Positions 5,117 to 38,855 of a stretch of 43,522 nt of DNA are shown here, piece by piece. Below the pieces are notes generated by a model that ran no database searches, was not told where the DNA came from, and saw only the letters and a list, made by a program, of their open reading frames with translations. How positions within the stretch are numbered: the first letter of the stretch is position 1; every line of letters starts with the position of its first letter. The translations under genes were made by a program, and so were the position numbers. Source of the DNA: Lachnospiraceae bacterium (GTDB lineage Bacteria; Bacillota; Clostridia; Lachnospirales; Lachnospiraceae); assembly GCA_017620155.1 (NCBI GenBank), contig JAFZQY010000075.1, positions 1-43,522 on the forward strand, in the 5' to 3' direction.

Positions 5117-6361
5117 TTATGCTACTCCGGTTCTGTAGATGATCTTCGGTTCTTCCTTCTTTTCTATTGCTTCGGCCGTCATGATGCATTCGGAGATGTT
5201 GTCATCCGACGGTATCTGATACATGATGTCCATCATCGCATTTTCCATGATGGAACGAAGTCCGCGGGCGCCGGTCTTTTTCTCAAAAGCCTGATGAGCG
5301 ATGAGCTCAATGGCTTCATCCGTGAACGTGAGTTTGACCTCATCCATGTCGAAGAGCTTCTTGTACTGCTTAACAAGAGCGTTCTTGGGTTCGGTCAGGA
5401 TCTGCTTTAATGCATCCTCATCAAGTCCTTCGAGAGTAACAGTGATCGGCACACGGCCGATGAACTCGGGGATAAGTCCGAACTTGATCAGATCCTGTGT
5501 GGATACCTCTTTAAGCAGAGAATCCGCTTCCTTGGTATTCTTGGCTGTAAGCTCGCCGCCGAATCCGATGGAGCTGCGGTCAAGTCTTGCTTCGATGATC
5601 TTGTCGAGGCCGTCAAATGCACCTCCGCAGATAAAGAGGATGTTGGATGTATTGATCTGGATCAGTTCCTGGTGGGGATGCTTACGTCCGCCCTGAGGGG
5701 GAACCGATGCGTCCGTGCCCTCGATTATCTTAAGAAGCGCCTGCTGAACGCCCTCACCGGATACGTCTCTGGTGATGGAAACGTTTTCGGACTTCTTGGT
5801 GATCTTATCGACTTCGTCTATGTAGATGATACCCAGTTCTGCTCTGGATATATCATAATCCGCTGCCTGAATGAGCTTTAAGAGGATATTCTCGACATCC
5901 TCGCCCACATATCCGGCCTCGGTAAGCGTTGTTGCATCCGCTATCGCAAAAGGAACGCCGATGATCTTGGCAAGAGTCTGGGCAAGATATGTTTTTCCGG
6001 AACCTGTAGGCCCAAGCATCATGATGTTGGACTTCTGGAGCTCAACACCGTCGTTTGAATCCTTTTTGCTGGACAGCACTCTCTTATAGTGGTTATATAC
6101 GGCAACCGACAGAACCTTCTTGGCCTCATCCTGTCCGATAACGTACTCATCCAGGAACTTCTTGATCTGAACGGGCTTTAACAGTTCGATGTCAAATTCG
6201 CCGCGTATCGCTTCCTCTTCGTCGTCCTCAAGATCATCCATGATGTCGACGCATATCTCAACGCACTCGTCGCAGATATACACACCGGAGGGGCCGGCTA
6301 TGAGCTTGCGCACCTCATCCTGGGACTTGCCGCAAAAGGAGCATTTTACCTTTTCACTCAT
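5117..6361 (-). CDS. clpX: ClpX, ATPase subunit of the ClpXP protease
   Basis: A 414-residue AAA+ unfoldase that selects substrates and threads them into ClpP. The N-terminal C4 zinc-binding domain has Cys7, Cys10, Cys30 and Cys33. Walker A GPTGSGKT is at 117-124 and Walker [10 protein letters not shown] follows. The IGF loop (SSIGFGGEL) that docks on ClpP is intact, as is the C-terminal small domain ([13 protein letters not shown]). Its ATG overlaps the clpP stop codon (ATGA), so ClpP and ClpX are made in a coupled manner. It is a full-length, unremarkable member of the family. Confidence 0.98.
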
Positions 6362-6999
6362 TTCTTCTTTTTATCCTTATTCTGTGATTCGGCCATCTCG
6401 GCACGATTGGTGATCACCTGATCGATCAGGCCGTACTCCTTGGCCTCATCAGCGCTCATCCAGTTATCACGCTCTGTATCATCGGCAACCTGCTCAAAAG
6501 GCTTGCCTGTATTCTCTGACAGGATCCTGTTCAGTTTTTCCTTGGTACGCAGGATATGCTTGGCAGCGATCTCGATCTCGGTTGCCTGCCCCTGCGATCC
6601 GCCGCTGGGCTGATGGATCATGATCTCGGCATTCTTAAGCGCCATGCGCTTGCCCTTGGCACCGCCGGCCAGAAGGAATGCGCCCATGCTGGCTGCCATA
6701 CCTATACATATGGTTGATACGTCGCACTTGATGTACTGCATGGTATCGTAAATTGCCATACCGGCTGTTACGGAACCGCCGGGGCTGTTGATATACAGAT
6801 GGATATCCTTCTCGGGATCCTGAGCTTCCAGGAAAAGCAGCTGGGCTACTACAAGGCTTGCAGTAGTATCATTCACCTCGTCTCCGAGGAAAACGATGCG
6901 GTCTTCCAGCAGTCTGGAATAGATATCATATGAGCGCTCTCCTCTGGAGGTCTGCTCTACGACATAAGGCACCAGAGCCATCTTAGTCTTGTCTTCCAT
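6358..6999 (-). CDS. clpP: ClpP, proteolytic subunit of the Clp protease
   Basis: A 213-residue tetradecameric serine peptidase. The catalytic triad is Ser104 (GMAASMG), His129 (MIHQPSGG) and Asp178 (TERD). The ORF starts at the ATG at 6999 behind AGGAGGG. The first residues, before [10 protein letters not shown], are likely removed as a short propeptide. The C-terminus ends in a Lys-rich tail (KDKKKK), longer than in many homologues. It lies 24 bases after tig and overlaps clpX by 4 bases. No CtsR-type repeat is visible before it, so expression probably comes from the tig promoter. Confidence 0.98.
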
Positions 7000-22163: not shown

Positions 22164-23191
22164 ACGATCACCTCTCCGGCAAGCACTTTCTTGTAATCTT
22201 CATAATTTCTCTTAAGCAGAGCCGGTGTATCAAGCTCATACGGACACTTGGACTTACAGGACCCGCACTCTATGCAGCTTTCTATCTTTCGCATTTCCGC
22301 CTGCCAGTTCTCAGACAGCCAGTTCTTGGAAGGAGCACGGCGAAGAAGCAGACTGGTCCTTGCGCAGTTATTGATCTGGATGCCCATCGGACAGGGCATG
22401 CAATATCCGCACCCGCGGCAGAATTCGCCGTCAAGCTGCGCTTTATCGGCTTCTATACGCCCCCTCATCTCATCATCCAGTTCGGGAGCATCGTCCATGT
22501 AAGAAAGCCACTCTTCAAGCTCGCTCATATGCTGGATGCCCCAGATCGGAAGCACATTTTCATAGGGAGTCATAGCCGCAAAAGCCATCCTTGAATCATT
22601 GATCAGGCCGCCGGCCAGCGCTTTCATCGCGATGAATCCCATGTTGTGATCGGCGCACCTCTTGGTCAGCGCGATCTCACGTTCTCCGGACAGGTAACTG
22701 AAAGGAAACTGAAGTGTCTCATAAAGTCCGGAATCCACGGCTTCCTCGGCCACACCGATCTTGTGAGCCGTGATGCCTATGTGCCTTACCATGCCCTGAC
22801 GCTTGAAATCCTCCATGAGTTCATACATCCCGGTACCGTCGTCCGGCTTAAAAACCTGCCCTGCGCAGTGAAACTGGTATATATCCACATGATCGGTCTT
22901 TAAGTTCTTAAGAGATGTTTCCATATGCTGCTTCATCTCTTCGGTATTTTTCGCCCCGGTCTTGGTCGCGATGAAGATCTTATCCCGCACGTCAGACAGT
23001 GCGTAGCCTATCTTTTCCTCGCTGTCAGAGTACGCTCGCGCCGTATCGAAAAAGGTCATGCCGCCTTCGTACGCTTTCCTTAAGATCGCAGCAGCGGTCT
23101 CAAGATCGTCTCTCTGAATGGGAAGTGCGCCGAACGCATTCTGAGGAGTTGTAATGCCGGTGGAGCCCAGAGTTATCTGTTTTACTTTCAT
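22160..23191 (-). CDS. Aldo/keto reductase with C-terminal [4Fe-4S] ferredoxin domain
   Basis: A 343-residue oxidoreductase. The start is set at the ATG at 23191, with AGGAGG 7 bases upstream and overlapping the glf stop codon; a longer frame to 23209 has no ribosome site. The AKR barrel carries the usual tetrad: Asp49, Tyr54, Lys77 and His108 (FFDTARAYSDSEEKIG, ATKTG, YQFHCAG). The C-terminal part holds two Cys clusters, CRGCGYCMPCPMG and CIECGSCKSKCPYE, suited to iron-sulfur binding. Such AKR-ferredoxin fusions are common in anaerobes, and their substrates are mostly unknown. It sits between glf and the galactanase gene, so a sugar substrate is possible but unproven. Confidence 0.93.
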   Translation of the reverse strand: MKVKQITLGSTGITTPQNAFGALPIQRDDLETAAAILRKAYEGGMTFFDTARAYSDSEEKIGYALSDVRDKIFIATKTGAKNTEEMKQHMETSLKNLKTDHVDIYQFHCAGQVFKPDDGTGMYELMEDFKRQGMVRHIGITAHKIGVAEEAVDSGLYETLQFPFSYLSGEREIALTKRCADHNMGFIAMKALAGGLINDSRMAFAAMTPYENVLPIWGIQHMSELEEWLSYMDDAPELDDEMRGRIEADKAQLDGEFCRGCGYCMPCPMGIQINNCARTSLLLRRAPSKNWLSENWQAEMRKIESCIECGSCKSKCPYELDTPALLKRNYEDYKKVLAGEVIV

Positions 23192-24345
23192 TTCAATACC
23201 TCCTGACAATATTCAAGTGCTCTTGAAATCACCGTGTCCATATCATAATATCTGTACTCTCCAAGCCGGCCTCCGATATGTACTTTGGTGTCCGAATCAG
23301 CCTTTTCGCGGTATTTTGCATACAGGGCCGAGTTCTTCTCATCGTTGACGGGATAGTAGGATTCCTCTCCCGGTTCCCATTTATGGCTGTATTCGCGGCT
23401 GATGATCGTGACGGGTATCTCGCGCCCGGCCTCATCCAGCCCGAACTCGAACCATTTGTGTTCTATTATCCTGGTAAAAGGCGTATCCGCATCGGTGTAG
23501 TTGACCACTGCGTTACCCTGGAAATTAGGCTTATCAAGTTTCTCCGTATCAAATCTGACGGATCTGTACTCAAGCGTACCAAGCTCATATCCGTAAAAAG
23601 CATCGATCGGCCCGGTGTAGATCACTTTTTCCGCAATTTCGTTAAGCGATGCGCGGTTAGCGGGATCGAGGTAATCAGTACTTAGCCTGACCTCAATCCC
23701 TTCCAGAAGATTTTCGAAAATCTGTGTATATCCGCCCGTAGGGATACCCTGAAAAAGTGCGTTGAAGTAGTTGTTGTCGTAGGTCAGCCTGACGGGCAGC
23801 CTGCGTATGATAAATGCAGGAAGTTCAGTACAGGGACGCCCCCACTGCTTCATCGTGTAGTCTTTGATCAGTTTTTCGTAGATATCCGTTCCGACCAGGG
23901 AAATAGCCTGTTCTTCGAGATTCTCAGGCTCAAATTCCGATACCGGGACGCCCTTCTTAGCGGCAGCCTGCTCAATGTATTCGCGCTTCTGCTCATCTAT
24001 GCGCTCGCGGGCTTCATCGGGCGTGATGACTCCCCACATGCGGTTGAATGTGTACATATTGAAGGGAAGGGAATACATCTCGCCGTGATAATTGGCCACG
24101 GGCGAGTTGGTATACCTGTTGAAGGTTGCGAATTGGTTTACATAATCCCATACCATTTTATCATTTGTATGGAAAATATGCGCTCCGTACTTATGGACAT
24201 TAATGCCGTCCGTACGCTCGGTATAGGCATTTCCGCCGATATGGGATCTCTTATCGACTACGAGCACAGATTTGCCTGCTTTATGAAGTTCGTGGGCGCA
24301 TACGGCGCCGTAGAATCCGGCACCGACTATCAGATAATCGTACAT
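23188..24345 (-). CDS. glf: UDP-galactopyranose mutase
   Basis: A 385-residue flavoenzyme converting UDP-galactopyranose to UDP-galactofuranose for cell-surface polymers. The N-terminal dinucleotide fold GAGFYGAVCAHELHKAGKSV binds FAD. HIGGNAYTE and HKYGAHIFHTN are the family motifs around the flavin and active site, and MKQWGRPCTELP and RLPVRLTYDNNYF are further conserved blocks. Length is normal. GAGG precedes the ATG, 7 bases after holA. It implies galactofuranose in a surface polysaccharide, although no glycosyltransferase genes are nearby. Confidence 0.97.
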   Translation of the reverse strand: MYDYLIVGAGFYGAVCAHELHKAGKSVLVVDKRSHIGGNAYTERTDGINVHKYGAHIFHTNDKMVWDYVNQFATFNRYTNSPVANYHGEMYSLPFNMYTFNRMWGVITPDEARERIDEQKREYIEQAAAKKGVPVSEFEPENLEEQAISLVGTDIYEKLIKDYTMKQWGRPCTELPAFIIRRLPVRLTYDNNYFNALFQGIPTGGYTQIFENLLEGIEVRLSTDYLDPANRASLNEIAEKVIYTGPIDAFYGYELGTLEYRSVRFDTEKLDKPNFQGNAVVNYTDADTPFTRIIEHKWFEFGLDEAGREIPVTIISREYSHKWEPGEESYYPVNDEKNSALYAKYREKADSDTKVHIGGRLGEYRYYDMDTVISRALEYCQEVLK

Positions 24346-24352
24346 TTTGTCC

Positions 24353-25393
24353 TCATTTCCGGCTTCCGGTCAGCCTTACCATCAAAGTATCGAGAGAGAT
24401 CTGGTCGCTCATACGGCCGGTCTTTACGGCCATGTCCGCATCAGCACAGAGATTTACCGCATTTTTCAGCTCATTAAGCGAATAGCCGCCGGTCTGTCTC
24501 TTGTATTTTTTCATCGTGAATTCGGGCTTTCCGACTTTCTTGCAGATCACTCCATCAGCCTGCCCGCGCATCTCCAGATCCTTGATCTTAAGAAGAGTAT
24601 CGAAATGCCTCGTGATCAGAACCAGGATCTTGATAGGAGCTTCTTTGAGGCCTATCAGATCATAATAGAGCGCCAGCGCATGTTCCCTGTTCCCCAGGGC
24701 TATAGAATCGCACATGTCGAAGACACGGTCTTCCAGTCTGCGTGTGCATATCGCATCTATGTCATCATGGCTGACAGAGCCCTTTTCCAGGCAATATGCG
24801 GAAAGTTTCTCGCATTCGTTGGAAAGCGCGAGCATATCCGTGCCGGCCACGCTCACCATATATGCGGCATCATTTGAAGATATCGGTGTTCCGAGCTTTT
24901 TAAGCCGCGAAGTGAGCCATATGGCGATAGTCTGCTCGGTCTGTTCCGGGAATTCGGATATGAGCCCGCATTTGGCCACGGTCTTATACAGTTTCAGACG
25001 CTTGTCTGCCTTTTTTTCACAAAAAACGATGCTGGTGGACTCACATACTCCCCGGTCGATGTATTCGTCGATCTCAGGGCAGCTGTCCACAAACCAGTCC
25101 GTGTCCTCGACCAGGATCACGCGGCGCTCAGCCATAAAGGGAAGCGTCTCTGCCAGGTCTATGATCCGCTCGGGATCGGTGTCGTGACCAATGAAGCGGT
25201 CAAAAGCAAGCGAGCCCTTAACGGCGCCCATGGCTTCGCACAGGCTGTCGCGAAACTGCAGGCGTAAATAGTCCTCAGCCCCGTACAGAAGATGTACCGG
25301 GCTGAAAGTCTTGTCTTGTATAACCTTATTGAGGATCTTTATGTCTTTTTGGGGATCTTCTTTTTTTCTGCCGTAAAAAGCGCCGTCACTCAC
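24353..25393 (-). CDS. holA: DNA polymerase III subunit delta
   Basis: A 346-residue clamp-loader subunit that opens the beta sliding clamp. It begins with GTG at 25393, which overlaps the TGA of the GGDEF-Nudix gene (GTGA). Family features are HLLYGAEDYLRLQFRD near residue 38, MAERRVILVED, the helical middle region ending in CEKLSAYCLEKGSVSHDDIDA, and the C-terminal collar helices (KYKRQTGGYSLNELKNAVNL). The sequence is near the usual length of about 340 residues. The position between a signalling gene and a sugar gene is unexpected for a replication gene. Confidence 0.94.
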   Translation of the reverse strand: MSDGAFYGRKKEDPQKDIKILNKVIQDKTFSPVHLLYGAEDYLRLQFRDSLCEAMGAVKGSLAFDRFIGHDTDPERIIDLAETLPFMAERRVILVEDTDWFVDSCPEIDEYIDRGVCESTSIVFCEKKADKRLKLYKTVAKCGLISEFPEQTEQTIAIWLTSRLKKLGTPISSNDAAYMVSVAGTDMLALSNECEKLSAYCLEKGSVSHDDIDAICTRRLEDRVFDMCDSIALGNREHALALYYDLIGLKEAPIKILVLITRHFDTLLKIKDLEMRGQADGVICKKVGKPEFTMKKYKRQTGGYSLNELKNAVNLCADADMAVKTGRMSDQISLDTLMVRLTGSRK

Positions 25394-27423
25394 GTATTAA
25401 AAACCTCTTTGATGCTGTCATAGTGGAGGAAGACTCCGTCCGCGCCGAGTTCCGCGATATCAGATGCCTTTGCGAGCATGTAGCCGTCAGCCTCTTCACG
25501 CTGTATCTGAACCTGATCGTCATCAAAGTCCATCACGAAGCGGTATACATCCACGAAATAATTATCGCCCTCTTCCGGGTTGTCGCGCTTATATGAGAAC
25601 ATGTATCCGCCCTCAGCGCCGCTTACATCAAGTCCGGTCTCCTCACGGATCTCTCTTACGACGGCGTCATAGGATTTCTCGCCTGCCATCGCAGCGCCTC
25701 CCGATACCTCCCACCATCCGGGAGCCCAGGACTTGCTCATCACGCGCCTGGTGACCAGGAATTCGCCCGTCGGCTTCATCACGACACCGAGAACGGTCAG
25801 GTGATAGTCGCCTTCCTTCATCGTGAAGTCGTTTCTCTTCATCGTGCGTCCGGTAGGTTCCTTGTTCGCATCGTATATATCCCAGAGTTCGTCGGCCTTC
25901 TCAGCCTTATTCTCCTCTACATCATCGGTGCCAGGCACCGTTTCAACCTCTTCCGTGGTGCCAGGCACCGTCTCGGCTGCCGGCTCCGCAGAAGCGTTTG
26001 CCGCCACTTTAGCCTCTTTAGCTGCAGCGAGTTCGGCTGCATTCACTGCCGGAGCCAGATCCGCTGCATCGGGCACCTCGCCCATATACGAGATCACGCG
26101 GTTTCTTCCGCTCTCCTTGGCGAAATATAACAGTTCGTCGGCTGCGGTGATCTCCGCATCGGCGCTTCTTTCAGGATCACCCTCGACTATGCCGTAACTC
26201 ATCGTGAAACGGATCGTCTGCGCCCCGAATTCTACGCTTGATGCACGGATCTCGCGAAGAATGTTCCACATATGCTCCTTCGCCTCTTCGAGTTTCATAT
26301 CTTCTATTATGAACAGGAATTCCTCGCCGCCCCATCTGATCGCCGTGCCTTTGCCGGCCATCCGGTCGCTCAGTATCCTTGCGACCTCCTTGAGCACGGC
26401 ATCACCTGCATCATGGCCGTATGTATCGTTGACCTTTTTGAAAAAGTCGATATCGCCCATCGCTATGCAGTAGGTCTGTCCGTATTTATCGGCCGCGCGC
26501 CTGATCTGCTCGATCTTCTGGTTTCCGCTACGCCTGTTATTTAAATTCGTGAGCGGGTCTTTTTCCACTAATTTCTTAAGGGCGCCCCGCACGAAAAGTG
26601 CGCAACGGCCCATATCTCCGACCTCATCCTCACGGTTTAGTACGCTCTGATCAAGATTACCGTCCAGCCGTCCGCTGGCCATCGATCCCATGAAATCCTT
26701 GAGCTTATCCAAATGCTCCACGAGCTTCGATGTGTAACCCGTCATCCAAAGAGCCGCGAACAGGCCTGCTATGACGATGATCGCACCGTATACGGCCGAC
26801 AGCCTGTATACATACCCAAGCGTCTCACTGAAGGGCCGTCCGACACCTATCATGCCGATGCATGTCCCGTCGGATGTGAAGATCGGCGTATACTGCACGC
26901 AGTATCTGACCTTCTCTATCGTCACATCATTGAAAAAGCACTCTTTTCCGCCGATCAGGACCTCCGAAGAGATCTTGTTGTTGGCTATCGTACCCGTCAC
27001 GGGCTTCCCGCTGCTGTCATTTATCGTGGAGATCATGCGGGTATCATAGAAGAAAAGCGAGATCTCGGTGCCGGTCTCTCTGGCCACATGCTCAACGAAC
27101 GATGTGTCCTCTGAGATCACCTCGTCGCCTTTCTTAAGATATGCGCGTTCCTGGGCCTCATCGATCAGCAGGTTATATTCGCCGGGATACATGTCATCAA
27201 AGTAGGTAAGTATCATCATCGACACATGCGTAAGATCCCCCTGCATCTCCTTCTGGAGAGCGCGCGTATATATGGCGATGCTCGCACACAAAAAGACGAT
27301 CCCGAGTACGATTATCGTAAGGATTGTCCTTAACAGAAACGCCTTTTTCAGGCCGCCCTCGCCTTTGAGCTCTACTTCGTCGATTGTGGTCGGCATTACG
27401 GTCGATCTGGGTTTTTCTTTCAT
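25390..27423 (-). CDS. Membrane diguanylate cyclase fused to a Nudix hydrolase
   Basis: A 677-residue protein with an unusual architecture. One membrane helix (about 27-50), an outside sensor region of the Cache type (55-205), a second helix (206-228), and a HAMP linker (229-282) lead to a GGDEF domain (285-447). That domain has an intact GGEEF (365-369) and GDIDFFKKVNDTYGH, so it should make c-di-GMP; the RxxD feedback site is missing. An Ala/Glu-rich linker with two VPGT units follows. Residues 511-677 are a Nudix domain with a perfect box: Gly576-x5-Glu582-x7-Arg-Glu-Ile-Arg-Glu-Glu-Thr-Gly-Leu598. The WDIYDANKEPTGR and GDYHLTV parts resemble IDI/YfcD-like Nudix proteins. GGAGG precedes the ATG. 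Confidence 0.95.
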   Translation of the reverse strand: MKEKPRSTVMPTTIDEVELKGEGGLKKAFLLRTILTIIVLGIVFLCASIAIYTRALQKEMQGDLTHVSMMILTYFDDMYPGEYNLLIDEAQERAYLKKGDEVISEDTSFVEHVARETGTEISLFFYDTRMISTINDSSGKPVTGTIANNKISSEVLIGGKECFFNDVTIEKVRYCVQYTPIFTSDGTCIGMIGVGRPFSETLGYVYRLSAVYGAIIVIAGLFAALWMTGYTSKLVEHLDKLKDFMGSMASGRLDGNLDQSVLNREDEVGDMGRCALFVRGALKKLVEKDPLTNLNNRRSGNQKIEQIRRAADKYGQTYCIAMGDIDFFKKVNDTYGHDAGDAVLKEVARILSDRMAGKGTAIRWGGEEFLFIIEDMKLEEAKEHMWNILREIRASSVEFGAQTIRFTMSYGIVEGDPERSADAEITAADELLYFAKESGRNRVISYMGEVPDAADLAPAVNAAELAAAKEAKVAANASAEPAAETVPGTTEEVETVPGTDDVEENKAEKADELWDIYDANKEPTGRTMKRNDFTMKEGDYHLTVLGVVMKPTGEFLVTRRVMSKSWAPGWWEVSGGAAMAGEKSYDAVVREIREETGLDVSGAEGGYMFSYKRDNPEEGDNYFVDVYRFVMDFDDDQVQIQREEADGYMLAKASDIAELGADGVFLHYDSIKEVFNT
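25926..25971. repeat. Two palindromic repeats, 30-base period, in the GGDEF-Nudix linker
   Basis: The 13-base palindrome GGTGCC-A-GGCACC occurs at 25927-25939 and again at 25957-25969, exactly 30 bases apart. Read on the coding strand it gives Val-Pro-Gly-Thr twice, 10 residues apart (486-489 and 496-499). I noticed no other copy in the window. It may be a simple in-frame duplication or an inserted repeat element. Confidence 0.8.
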
Positions 27424-27452
27424 AGTCTGCCTCCGATGTGCATATATATACT

Positions 27453-27485
27453 ATGATACCACTATCAGGGTATCTGTGGTATACT
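27453..27485. promoter_or_regulatory. Divergent extended -10 promoters built on one inverted repeat
   Basis: ATACCAC (27456-27462) and GTGGTAT (27476-27482) are a perfect inverted repeat. Rightwards it yields TGG-TATACT (27477-27485) and leftwards TGG-TATCAT (27461-27453), each 5 of 6 to TATAAT with the extended TGn. The rightward start would fall at or beside the ATG at 27491; the leftward leader to the GGDEF-Nudix gene would be about 24 bases with GGAGG. No good -35 boxes are seen. A repressor bound here would control both genes. Confidence 0.5.
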
Positions 27486-27490
27486 TGTGC

Positions 27491-28033
27491 ATGGCTATGA
27501 AAAAACTAAAATCTCACTCACAATCACATAAACGCGTACTTGGCGTGGTCGGGGTTATCTGTATGCTTGCCCTGCTCTGCCAGGGCTGCACCGAAAAGAC
27601 CGTCCCGCTCGCATCGGCATTAAGCATGGATTCGGAAGGAAACACAGGCCTCGGCATCCACGCCGGCTCCACATACGATGAATGGGCCACCGCTTACGGT
27701 TCATACGAAGTGCAGGTTGCGGACGGCGAGAACTATGTCCCCTACACAGTCGATATTCCCGAAGAAAGAAAAGAAAATTCCGAGGATGCCGAACCTATCC
27801 CTCATGACGGCAGGTTCATGATCGCTGCCTTTTACATCGACGATGTACCCACCAGCGTGAAGGATATCGCTGCAGCAGAAGGCGTGAGCACCGAAGAACT
27901 GGCCGACCACCTTGCATCACCCGAATACCTGGCTGATCACACCGTGGTCTTCAGATACATGATATTCATAATACAGGACGATGTCGTAAACAATATCGCC
28001 TGTGATTATCTGGATTACAACGCAGAATTATAA
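27491..28033 (+). CDS. Small predicted lipoprotein of unknown function
   Basis: About 180 residues from the ATG at 27491; a second in-frame ATG is at 27497. A basic start (MKKLKSHSQSHKR), a hydrophobic stretch (VLGVVGVICMLALL) and Cys33 in LCQGC suggest a lipoprotein signal, although the lipobox is not classical. The mature part is acidic (PEERKENSEDAEPIPHD) and ends in a region with VVFRYMIFIIQDDVV. I recognise no family. There is no Shine-Dalgarno sequence, and a -10 box ends 5 bases before the ATG, so the mRNA may be leaderless. The frame is also open upstream to 27272, but that part is antisense to the GGDEF-Nudix gene and has no ribosome site. It precedes the GH13 gene by 48 bases. Confidence 0.72.
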   Translation: MAMKKLKSHSQSHKRVLGVVGVICMLALLCQGCTEKTVPLASALSMDSEGNTGLGIHAGSTYDEWATAYGSYEVQVADGENYVPYTVDIPEERKENSEDAEPIPHDGRFMIAAFYIDDVPTSVKDIAAAEGVSTEELADHLASPEYLADHTVVFRYMIFIIQDDVVNNIACDYLDYNAEL

Positions 28034-35478: not shown

Positions 35479-36189
35479 TTATTTATGTCTGTTTACTATT
35501 CTGGTCTCGTAAGTCCCGTCGGCGATCTTGATATAGCGGACGAACAGCGATACCTTATTATCTTCGTTCAGGGCGCCCCACAGTTTCTCGGTGAGGGCGT
35601 CAATATCGTCAGAGATCTCTACGCGGACAGGCTCGCCTTCAAAACTCGGAAGCGGATCGCCGTCTCCGATGTATGTGTGGATGATGCGGCCTTCGCCTGC
35701 TATCGGGTTCTCGTATGCGTATGTGTATCTGTCGCACCCGGAAGCATCTCCGTTACTCTTAAGGATGGACATCGCATAGTTATAATTTCCGTCATTCACA
35801 TCGATCACGCCGGATATACGGGGTGTGTAATTCGGAGCATCGGGCTCGTACTCGCGCTCGCGAAGGCTCTGCTCGAATGTGAGGCCGTCAGCCAGTCCGT
35901 CGAAGACCGTATCTGTCTGGTCACCGTTGGTAACGATGGTGTATTTGCCGTACACGCGAACGGGTGCGTAGATGATGAGGCTGGGATCCGATAAGAGCGC
36001 GGGATCAAATGCCTCCGTACGTATTCCCATTCCGTCTTCTATGAAGATGCGGTTGCGGCTGTTGGTGCTTCTGCCCATGATAAAGTAAGCAGTTACTGCA
36101 TAGGCGCCGTCAGCACTTCTTCCGATCAGGATGCCGCGTCCGGGATAGGCGTTTGAGTTCAGATAGTCGAATACATTTGCTTTTTTCAT
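35479..36189 (-). CDS. purO: IMP cyclohydrolase, archaeal PurO type
   Basis: A 236-residue enzyme closing the ring of FAICAR to IMP. It resembles the PurO family first described in archaea: LNSNAYPGRGILIGRS near the N-terminus, SRNRIF, the DPSLIIYAPVR block, SGVIDV and a central THxYIGDG-like stretch (IIHTYIGDGDPLPSF). It takes the place of the N-terminal half of bacterial PurH. Its ATG overlaps the stop codon of the GGDEF-EAL gene in TAATG, with GAGGAG 12 bases upstream, so the two are translationally coupled. The AICAR formyltransferase follows after 21 bases. Confidence 0.9.
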   Translation of the reverse strand: MKKANVFDYLNSNAYPGRGILIGRSADGAYAVTAYFIMGRSTNSRNRIFIEDGMGIRTEAFDPALLSDPSLIIYAPVRVYGKYTIVTNGDQTDTVFDGLADGLTFEQSLREREYEPDAPNYTPRISGVIDVNDGNYNYAMSILKSNGDASGCDRYTYAYENPIAGEGRIIHTYIGDGDPLPSFEGEPVRVEISDDIDALTEKLWGALNEDNKVSLFVRYIKIADGTYETRIVNRHK

Positions 36190-38855
36190 TATAAGTATTT
36201 CTCCTCAAATAATTTCTGCGGAAGAGGTCTGTCGAAGTAGAAGCCCTGGACCATGCGCACATCCATGTCGGACAGCACATTAAACTGCTCCACGGTCTCG
36301 ATTCCCTCCACGCATATGCTCATGTCTATCATGCTGGCGAGCTGAGCTATATATCTTACGAATGCCTGTGAATATGCATCACGAGCCAGTTCGCGCACGA
36401 AGGACTGATCAACTTTGATCACATCGATGGGAAGCTCCCTGATGTGGTTGAGTGATGAATAGCCGGTACCGAAATCGTCCAGCGCGATCCTGCAGCCGAG
36501 TCCTTTGATGGCGGCAAGGACCTCTTTCATCTTGTTCATATCGTTGATGGCCAGGTTCTCGGTAACCTCCAGCGTCAGGTTGTGGGGATTGATGCCGGTA
36601 TCGTCCAGAGTAGTCTTTACGACCTGGACTATATCGGGCTGGATCAGCTGAACCACCGACAGATTGACATTTACTTTGTAATTCGGATGGCCGTGATCAT
36701 TCCAGTATTTACAGGTCTCACATGCTTTTCTTAAGACATGCGCACCGATCGGGATGATGAGCCCTAAGTATTCCGCAAAAGGAATGAAATCGGCCGGCGA
36801 CATGAATCCGAGTCCGGGCGAATCCCACCTGACGAGTGCCTCAGCGCCTACGCAGGGCGATCCGTCCATCCGGATATCCATGATGGGCTGATAATATACG
36901 AGGAATTCTTCATAGCCGTTCTTGCCGGCTTCCCTCATGTATTTTTCCATGTCGAGACGCTTGCTGGACTGGCTGTCCATATCGCTGTTGTATACAGCGA
37001 CCTTGTTCTTGCCGCCCTTCTTGGCCTCGTACATCGTGATGTCGGCTTTTTTGATCAGCTCCTGGATCTGAGTACCCTCCTCGGGGAAGGATACGACACC
37101 CATACTCATCGTACAGTAGTAATCGGCATCCTTGAGGAACCACGGTCTGTTGAATATCGCTTTGATATCCGTAACGATACGGTCAAGCTCGTGATATGAA
37201 TAAGGCGGAATGATGATGACGAACTCGTCGCCGCCCATTCGGTAGCAGGTCTCCTCCACGCCGGGTACGCGCGCGAAACTGTGCGCTATGGCCTGCAGGA
37301 GCACATCGCCGTACTGGTGTCCAAGTCCGTCGTTGATATGCTTGAAATCATCCAGGTCGAGATAGAGGATCGCGCCGTGCGTTCCGTCCGAAACGGCACT
37401 GTCCACGAACTTCGCCAGGTCTCTTTCGCAGCACATGCGGTTATAGAGTCCGGTCAGGAAGTCGGTATAAGCAAGCTGCTCTATCTTCTTCTGGTTTTTC
37501 TTTTTCTCGGTGATATCGAGGATTGCGCACATAAGTGAAGGGGACTGGCCCATCCATATAATGTGCGAATAGTAGAGTTCATAATATTCGTCGCGCTGGG
37601 GATTGTAGATCTCAATGCAGCCCGAATCGCTGCCCTCGGGGATCTGGGATTCAAAAATGCGCTCTAAGGGCCTATCCTCGGTCCTGTCATACTTCACCTC
37701 TGAAGTAAAGTTCGCGATCATGGTCTTGTTGGTGAACTGCAAAATTCCTGTCTTGATCTCGCGGACATAGATCGATGTTCCGACATTATCAAGAGAAGCG
37801 CGCACGCTCTCAAAAGAGCCTGCGATGTTGATCTCATATCTCCTGCGCTCGATGATGGATTCCAGGATCCTGGTCGCATCGGTTAAGAAGCCTATCTCAT
37901 CCACGGTCCAGTATCTGTCACTCGAGCTCTCATCATAGCAGGCGTACATATATGCAGGGCGGTCGGAGGACTTGATGGGAACGATGACCATGGCATTGAT
38001 GCCGAGAGCCTCCATTTCGTGAACCCATTCGGCGCTGATAACGCCGGAGCCCGTTGAAACGGCCTGAACTTTGGAACCTGCCAGGAAAGAATATCTGGGA
38101 AGATCCCGGCTCCTGTCAAACCTCGGAACCACGCCGGGAGCATACCACTCGGCCATGATATCCATCAGACCTTTGTCGTGGATGTTCGTGATATAGATAT
38201 GCGCGCTGCTCAAGCCTAAGTACTCGCCGACGATCTTAAGCGCGCTCACAGCGAGGGACTCAACTATCTCATCGCGGTCCATGAGCTGGACGATCGCTGT
38301 CATGACCTCGCTTCGTCTCAGGGCCTCGCTGAGTTCTGCTTCGGAATATTTGTTGCGGCGGTTCTGCGCCTCCGCATTTACGGCAGAAAGCCTGATGGTC
38401 GTCTGATACAGACAGGTCTCACGGATCAGATCCAGTGAATCCTGCAGTTTATCGTAAGTGATGACTCTGGAAAAACCTGTGACGGGCTCTTTTACATAAT
38501 TGGGGGAAGTCTCATAATCCGAGATGACTCCGATTACTACCCATGTAAGAAGCGACTGGCCGTTCACGCGTACCGTGGTAAGCCCGAACTTGACGTTCGG
38601 GATATCGGTGTCCTCGATGACCTGGTCTTCCAAGCTGCTCTGCGTAAGTCTGTAGAATATATCCGCAACCCTGTCGGGAGAAATGAACTCCATCAGGCGC
38701 TCGACTTCCGTCTTGGGTCCGCTGGCATCCGTTACCGGAACACCCGCAGAATCAAGACAGTAAGCATATAAGCCTACTGCCCTGGAGAAGCTGTCCTGGA
38801 GCTGTGCGATATATTCGATATCGATTATACTGTCTCTGCCTCTGTTGATCTGCAT
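36189..38855 (-). CDS. GGDEF-EAL c-di-GMP protein with N-terminal sensor domains
   Basis: An 888-residue cytoplasmic protein without membrane helices. The N-terminal part (about 1-150, LIR-type motifs such as IDIEYIAQLQDSFSRAVGL) resembles a PocR-like ligand domain; this is uncertain. A GAF-like domain (about 195-335) and a PAS-like domain (about 345-450) precede GGDEF with an intact GGDEF (541-545) and EAL with Glu672-Ala-Leu. The EAL domain keeps NVNLS, EVTEN, DDFGTGYS (793-800), VDQSF and VEGIETVEQ, so it should cut c-di-GMP. The RxxD inhibitory site is missing (GVEE). It lies between guaB and purO. No clear Shine-Dalgarno sequence precedes its ATG. Confidence 0.93.
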   Translation of the reverse strand: MQINRGRDSIIDIEYIAQLQDSFSRAVGLYAYCLDSAGVPVTDASGPKTEVERLMEFISPDRVADIFYRLTQSSLEDQVIEDTDIPNVKFGLTTVRVNGQSLLTWVVIGVISDYETSPNYVKEPVTGFSRVITYDKLQDSLDLIRETCLYQTTIRLSAVNAEAQNRRNKYSEAELSEALRRSEVMTAIVQLMDRDEIVESLAVSALKIVGEYLGLSSAHIYITNIHDKGLMDIMAEWYAPGVVPRFDRSRDLPRYSFLAGSKVQAVSTGSGVISAEWVHEMEALGINAMVIVPIKSSDRPAYMYACYDESSSDRYWTVDEIGFLTDATRILESIIERRRYEINIAGSFESVRASLDNVGTSIYVREIKTGILQFTNKTMIANFTSEVKYDRTEDRPLERIFESQIPEGSDSGCIEIYNPQRDEYYELYYSHIIWMGQSPSLMCAILDITEKKKNQKKIEQLAYTDFLTGLYNRMCCERDLAKFVDSAVSDGTHGAILYLDLDDFKHINDGLGHQYGDVLLQAIAHSFARVPGVEETCYRMGGDEFVIIIPPYSYHELDRIVTDIKAIFNRPWFLKDADYYCTMSMGVVSFPEEGTQIQELIKKADITMYEAKKGGKNKVAVYNSDMDSQSSKRLDMEKYMREAGKNGYEEFLVYYQPIMDIRMDGSPCVGAEALVRWDSPGLGFMSPADFIPFAEYLGLIIPIGAHVLRKACETCKYWNDHGHPNYKVNVNLSVVQLIQPDIVQVVKTTLDDTGINPHNLTLEVTENLAINDMNKMKEVLAAIKGLGCRIALDDFGTGYSSLNHIRELPIDVIKVDQSFVRELARDAYSQAFVRYIAQLASMIDMSICVEGIETVEQFNVLSDMDVRMVQGFYFDRPLPQKLFEEKYL

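Follow-up and report, generated by a model that had tools for sequence, protein, structure and literature searches.

A sensor-GGDEF protein carrying a Nudix domain, conserved in the seven genomes searched from one Lachnospiraceae genus

Results and Discussion

A sensor, a GGDEF domain and a Nudix domain in one frame

We analysed a contig of 43,522 nucleotides from a gut bacterium of the Lachnospiraceae (JAFZQY010000075.1; the whole stretch is called the window below), in which a single open reading frame (ORF) of 677 codons, starting at an ATG with a GGAGG-like site 5' of it, encodes a membrane protein with a sensor and a GGDEF domain followed by a complete Nudix domain. An earlier note, made from the sequence of the window, had described two membrane helices, an outside sensor region, an intact GGEEF motif, a linker and a Nudix box within this frame, and Pfam, hydropathy and motif readings confirm that layout (Table 1). 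The Pfam NUDIX match itself covers residues 540-649 (7.4e-13, 49.1 bits against a cut-off of 21.1). Both halves of the protein are of known kinds and the pairing is the new part: the note named no characterised protein with this pair, and in the open-access literature, outside which most subscription papers lie, our searches met with no account of one either.

Table 1 Features of the window, numbered from its first nucleotide.
Feature	Residues	Position	Strand	Basis
Fusion gene, sCache_3_3 / (HAMP-like) / GGDEF / linker / Nudix	1-677	25390..27423	-	ORF, Pfam and genus search
Membrane helix 1	28-55	27259..27342	-	Kyte-Doolittle hydropathy peak (approximate)
sCache_3_3 sensor match, expected outside the membrane	102-201	26821..27120	-	Pfam 7.6e-21, over cut-off
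Membrane helix 2	205-231	26731..26811	-	Kyte-Doolittle hydropathy peak (approximate)
HAMP-like region, unconfirmed by Pfam	232-287	26563..26730	-	Position; DEVG at 266-269
GGDEF domain	288-442	26098..26562	-	Pfam 1.2e-37, 129.6 bits against cut-off 23.8
GGEEF active-site motif	365-369	26317..26331	-	Invariant in 7/7 orthologues
Variable linker rich in Ala, Glu and Pro	444-513	25885..26094	-	Orthologue alignment
Nudix subfamily domain, WDIYD...KEVF	514-675	25399..25884	-	Pfam and subfamily alignments
Complete Nudix box, GX5EX7REUXEEXGU	576-598	25630..25698	-	Motif reading
holA, DNA polymerase III delta subunit		24353..25393	-	TIGR01128, over cut-off
glf, UDP-galactopyranose mutase, neighbour outside the system		23188..24345	-	TIGR00031
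Divergent ORF, lipoprotein-like (CQGC)		27272..28033	+	No Pfam match
888-aa ORF with GGDEF and EAL		36189..38855	-	

The fusion is real and recurs in all seven genus genomes searched. When 61 genomes (its own and 60 relatives) were searched, scoring at most 19 candidates in each, the whole-length protein was recovered in its own genome and in all six others of the same genus, and in none of the remaining 54. A separate search of the genus again gave 7/7, whole-length and without stops. These six records are Lachnospiraceae bacterium XBB2008, which is not labelled as a metagenome-assembled genome (MAG), and five MAGs, with goat rumen, red deer and roe deer duodenum among their sources; their proteins are 64-92% identical to that of the window. 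The note had considered that the fusion might be an assembly artefact or might occur in this genome only; its presence in 7/7 genomes rules out the first and disposes of the second.

Ratios of nonsynonymous to synonymous substitution (dN/dS, Nei-Gojobori; values of 0.000, which arise from saturated dS or from an absence of changes, were excluded) between the window and XBB2008 were 0.069 for sCache, 0.046 for GGDEF and 0.010 for Nudix. In a closer and less saturated pair of genus members (L087 and L088) they were 0.058, 0.036 and 0.056, respectively, against 0.586 for the linker, which indicates that both enzyme domains are held by purifying selection while the linker drifts. The linker also varies in length, from 50 to 96 residues across the seven orthologues.

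Relatives of the Nudix domain are mostly free-standing

The fused Nudix domain belongs to a WDIYD-type subfamily whose other Lachnospiraceae members are 61-74% identical to it and share its Nudix box and a GDNYFVD region, but occur mostly in frames of about 165-260 codons, with no sensor or GGDEF domain and with varied neighbours. A search of named genomes yielded 528 candidate stretches; 482 were confirmed, and we kept the 80 best as loci. GGDEF lies in the same frame in six of these best loci, all from this genus, and 74 are without it. Within the family, the subfamily was found in 67 of 299 genomes (E ≤ 1e-45). Judging fused status by the length of the frame, as was done for the family and class samples, the matching frame is 686 or 691 codons long in the window's own genome and in G003, a second genome of the genus, and at most 391 codons long in the other 65. 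Of the 291 genomes sampled from the class, 20 gave a match (E ≤ 1e-25), with a frame of more than 345 codons in the own genome only. A model of the whole fusion, with two candidates scored per genome, matched 2 of 398 genomes of the phylum (E ≤ 1e-60), fused in the own genome only; in the second, from the same family, a related cyclase and the Nudix are separate genes on different contigs (G286).

The GGDEF motif is absent from the longer frames of the family and class samples that were read (in genomes G100, G132, G425, G584, G375 and G528), and a PF00293 search of 119 genomes of the phylum gave no GGDEF in the four long frames read among the best matches listed. The rarity of the pairing with GGDEF applies to this Nudix subfamily only.

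Alignment of 81 Nudix domains (7 fused and 74 not fused to GGDEF) gave 56 invariant columns, and the fixed Gly, Glu and Arg of the Nudix box are invariant in 81/81. Nine of the columns in which the copies without GGDEF are 95% or more conserved differ in at least one fused copy, and none of the nine is among the fixed positions of the Nudix box. Residue 533 is Trp in 72 of the 74 and Phe in all seven fused copies. In a tree of these domains the seven fused copies form one group with 100/100 support, with a single change of label. As the stem of this group is long and the tree was rooted at its midpoint, it shows one group and not which state came first; most simply, the fusion would have arisen once, at the base of the genus. 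In the most divergent member, L092, the residues directly before WDIYD are Met-Glu-His, while the free enzyme starts Met-Glu-x-WDIYD, so that this tripeptide is likely left over from the former start of the protein.

A further copy of the subfamily was sought in the same genomes. Two genus genomes, the own one and G003, gave no second subfamily Nudix at E ≤ 1e-45, and none of the seven, with at most 19 candidates scored in each, gave a second match covering the Nudix domain at E ≤ 1e-30. The next Nudix in the own genome is more distant (E 3.9e-27).

The fused domain has the motifs of a hydrolase

By sequence, the nearest solved structures are isopentenyl diphosphate isomerases (IDI), with 1ow2 at E 1e-8 and 3hyq found by profile. 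However, type 1 IDI reads SVCGHPQLGE where the fused protein reads VSGGAAMAGE, and has RRCRYELG where the fused protein has the full REUXEEXG box. The Cys and His of IDI, which are catalytic, are thus missing, and NCBIfam PRK03759 scores 40.6 bits, below its cut-off of 127. Nudix hydrolases of the DR_0079 / YfcD type have a similar domain, but their sequence similarity is weak (1q27, E 0.0017; 2fkb, E 0.0026). DR_0079 reportedly prefers cytosine nucleoside di- and triphosphates. In DR_0079 the final Gly of the box is replaced by Asn (PMC5389931), unlike in the fused domain. Because the box is full, the motif is of the hydrolase and not the isomerase type, and no decay followed the fusion, we regard an active pyrophosphohydrolase as the most likely identity of the Nudix half.

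At least three of the 74 copies without GGDEF are fused to other proteins (L100, L106 and L124). In L124 (2616-4385, +) the subfamily domain lies at the C-terminus of a glutamyl-tRNA reductase (GluTR), as confirmed by Pfam, and a GluTR-Nudix fusion was recognised by eye in L106 (1-1053, +), whose start is cut off; genes of tetrapyrrole type, also identified by eye, adjoin both. L100 (5545-6501, +) has a Fur-family regulator fused to the domain, directly followed by an ORF with a GGDEF motif. At several loci a GluTR-like or Fur-like gene (by eye) directly precedes a separate Nudix gene, a Fur-like ORF lying just upstream in L131, L148 and L154. In L175 (G100:C10:15500-19200) the Nudix domain is fused to an HD_3 / YfbR-like nucleotidase domain, and more distant members are fused to MoaE, to GNAT (on either side) and to inorganic pyrophosphatase domains. 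This looks like a self-contained Nudix enzyme that has repeatedly become fused to a neighbouring gene, usually the upstream one, and the HD nucleotidase and pyrophosphatase partners would fit an enzyme acting on nucleotides and releasing pyrophosphate or a nucleoside monophosphate.

The cyclase half resembles free-standing membrane cyclases

Whole-length, free-standing membrane cyclases similar to this half are encoded in five genomes of the same family and are 32-38% identical to it. The three tested (L045-L047) have sCache_3_3 and GGDEF by Pfam, as in the fusion, but are without a Nudix match and stop within 86 residues of the end of the GGDEF domain, where the fusion adds a linker and a whole Nudix enzyme. 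The sCache_3_3 region weakly matches a chemoreceptor ligand-binding domain (8py0, E 0.0088), and the solved chain nearest by sequence to the GGDEF domain is 7e6g (E 2.5e-31).

The note had called this half a sensor-HAMP cyclase. The sensor and cyclase parts of that call stand, both over the Pfam cut-off, and HAMP remains unconfirmed: residues 206-290 searched alone matched no Pfam family at E ≤ 1, and in the free-standing relatives HAMP was matched weakly, below the cut-off, in two of three tested (0.0054 and 0.046). We call the region HAMP-like from its position and from DEVG, a motif of such domains.

At what we assume, by analogy with PleD, to be the position of the RxxD product-inhibition site, the sequence is AGKG (residues 356-359), and the inhibitory site is absent; A356 and G359 do not vary among the 7/7 orthologues. 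Loss of RxxD is compatible with diguanylate cyclase activity, and this half should act as an ordinary sensor-controlled diguanylate cyclase. A network for its product, cyclic di-guanosine monophosphate (c-di-GMP), is present: the own genome has 32 GGDEF, 12 EAL and 3 PilZ matches over cut-off.

A proposed role for the fusion

We think it reasonably probable that the protein is two working enzymes, a membrane diguanylate cyclase and an appended housekeeping Nudix enzyme, that are loosely coupled. The sCache sensor would read a ligand outside the cell, and the signal, passed through the membrane and the HAMP-like region, would control a catalytically competent cyclase, below which the flexible linker would hang a Nudix pyrophosphohydrolase. 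Elsewhere in Lachnospiraceae this subfamily is mostly free-standing and cytoplasmic; a once-free Nudix may have been appended to a membrane cyclase in the ancestor of the genus, and the fused domain may now replace the free one. Its substrate could be a nucleoside di- or triphosphate, or an aberrant nucleotide. The coupling, as we picture it, would consist of co-expression and membrane tethering, and the Nudix reaction would not be a step in c-di-GMP turnover. If the domains prove to be uncoupled, the protein clearly exemplifies how a gene can capture a wandering housekeeping enzyme encoded downstream of it, given that members or relatives of the Nudix group have joined several other, unrelated proteins too.

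Several points weigh against this reading. Fixation throughout the genus could reflect a real functional coupling. A short PxSAxDxL-like motif, seen by eye, recurs in the linkers of L087, L088, L089 and L090, in two copies in the first two, and more weakly in that of the window; a pure tether would not need it. We found no measured activity for the Nudix subfamily and its nearest solved relatives are IDIs, so that the substrate is a guess. Finally, an ORF resembling the GGDEF or EAL parts of window proteins lies within the fetched stretch of 15 of the 74 unfused loci (17 of 791 ORFs), and directly downstream of the Nudix gene in L100 and L128.

In a possible, though unlikely, alternative, the fusion is a coupled module whose Nudix domain acts on a nucleotide that matters to c-di-GMP signalling, be it guanosine triphosphate (GTP), guanosine diphosphate (GDP), guanosine tetra- or pentaphosphate ((p)ppGpp) or one that binds or inhibits the cyclase, tuning c-di-GMP output on the same polypeptide. 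Fixation in 7/7 genomes, with both active sites conserved under purifying selection, would fit such a module, as would the GGDEF/EAL-like ORFs near 15 of the 74 unfused copies. A review that discusses Nudix genes near H-NOX genes raises a possible role in c-di-GMP metabolism, and states that no Nudix enzyme is known to act on c-di-GMP (PMC8738867); in Azospirillum, a diguanylate cyclase gene is followed directly by a Nudix gene (PMC8564387). Against it, 17 in 791 ORFs is roughly background beside the density in the own genome, where 44 GGDEF and EAL matches exceed the cut-off within 2.84 Mb; this is a rough comparison with the own genome only, in which related loci were not thinned. The fixed positions of the Nudix box are also unchanged between fused and unfused domains, and the unrelated partners of related Nudix domains (GluTR, Fur, MoaE, GNAT), together with their varied neighbours, make a dedicated c-di-GMP connection less likely.

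A more specific proposal, that the output of the cyclase is set by its own tethered Nudix domain removing or sensing a nucleotide such as GTP, GDP or (p)ppGpp at the membrane, strikes us as improbable. If true, it would tie c-di-GMP synthesis to the nucleotide state and give Nudix a direct role in c-di-GMP signalling, of which we found no description in the open-access literature. A natural, genus-wide fusion makes the suggested but unproven part of Nudix proteins in c-di-GMP metabolism (PMC8738867) directly testable with one protein.

We give little credence to the idea that the Nudix domain has no catalytic function and senses a ligand on behalf of the cyclase, in the manner of multidomain proteins with a small-molecule-binding Nudix homology domain, given the complete Nudix box, the columns invariant over all 81 rows and the lack of decay in the fused copies.

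It is very unlikely that the Nudix domain is a UDP-sugar (uridine diphosphate sugar) hydrolase working in one operon with glf and a GH53 galactanase, as the note had suggested. The one-strand run that it noticed is there, in that the fusion, holA, glf, an aldo/keto reductase and GH53 all lie on the same strand of the window, the genes also share one strand in XBB2008, and GH53 remains near the fusion in the genus. The note had, however, passed over holA, which lies directly downstream of the fusion in 7/7 genomes, with a 4-base overlap in six of them, the window included; glf shares the strand of the fusion in two genomes (the window and XBB2008) and is inverted in five. With glf inverted and holA the constant next gene, the argument for UDP-sugars from the operon fails. 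Neighbours of the 74 other loci, compared with the proteins of the window, included one glf-like ORF (L098) and no GH53 match.

Least credible of all is an artefact of assembly or annotation, or the production of two proteins from the single frame through internal initiation. In five of the seven members the linker does hold start-like codons with a weak Shine-Dalgarno-like sequence, and L092 has an ATG three codons before WDIYD, at the start of the free enzyme, but no start position is common to all seven, two have none, and the same fusion recurs in seven genomes, XBB2008 among them.

Neighbouring genes and other observations

The neighbours of the unfused Nudix genes, read at 74 loci (the Nudix ORF was not picked in L116, L144 and L164), are too varied to guide assignment of a substrate. 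DUF6062 and TetR-like genes near the fusion in the window also adjoin the unfused Nudix at L108 and at L109, and the Nudix stretch at L144, in differing orientations, and are possibly a relic of the locus before the fusion.

Control of the Nudix gene by a riboswitch was considered and rejected on the basis of Rfam scans that covered the window plus 19 loci out of the 80 named ones (20 sources) and gave six matches overall, none of ykkC type. Two TwoAYGGAY RNA matches in opposite orientation, at 5667-5832 (-) and 6604-6769 (+), flank the Nudix gene in L097, and a thiamine pyrophosphate (TPP) aptamer lies near that of L113; the TwoAYGGAY and TPP matches form no common pattern.

A second c-di-GMP protein is encoded in the window, with GGDEF and EAL in one ORF (Table 1). 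The poorly conserved divergent ORF lies beside the fusion in the window and four relatives; it was not found in L044 and is not visible in L041, at a contig edge. As it overlaps the fusion gene in its 5' part, its true start is probably further in.

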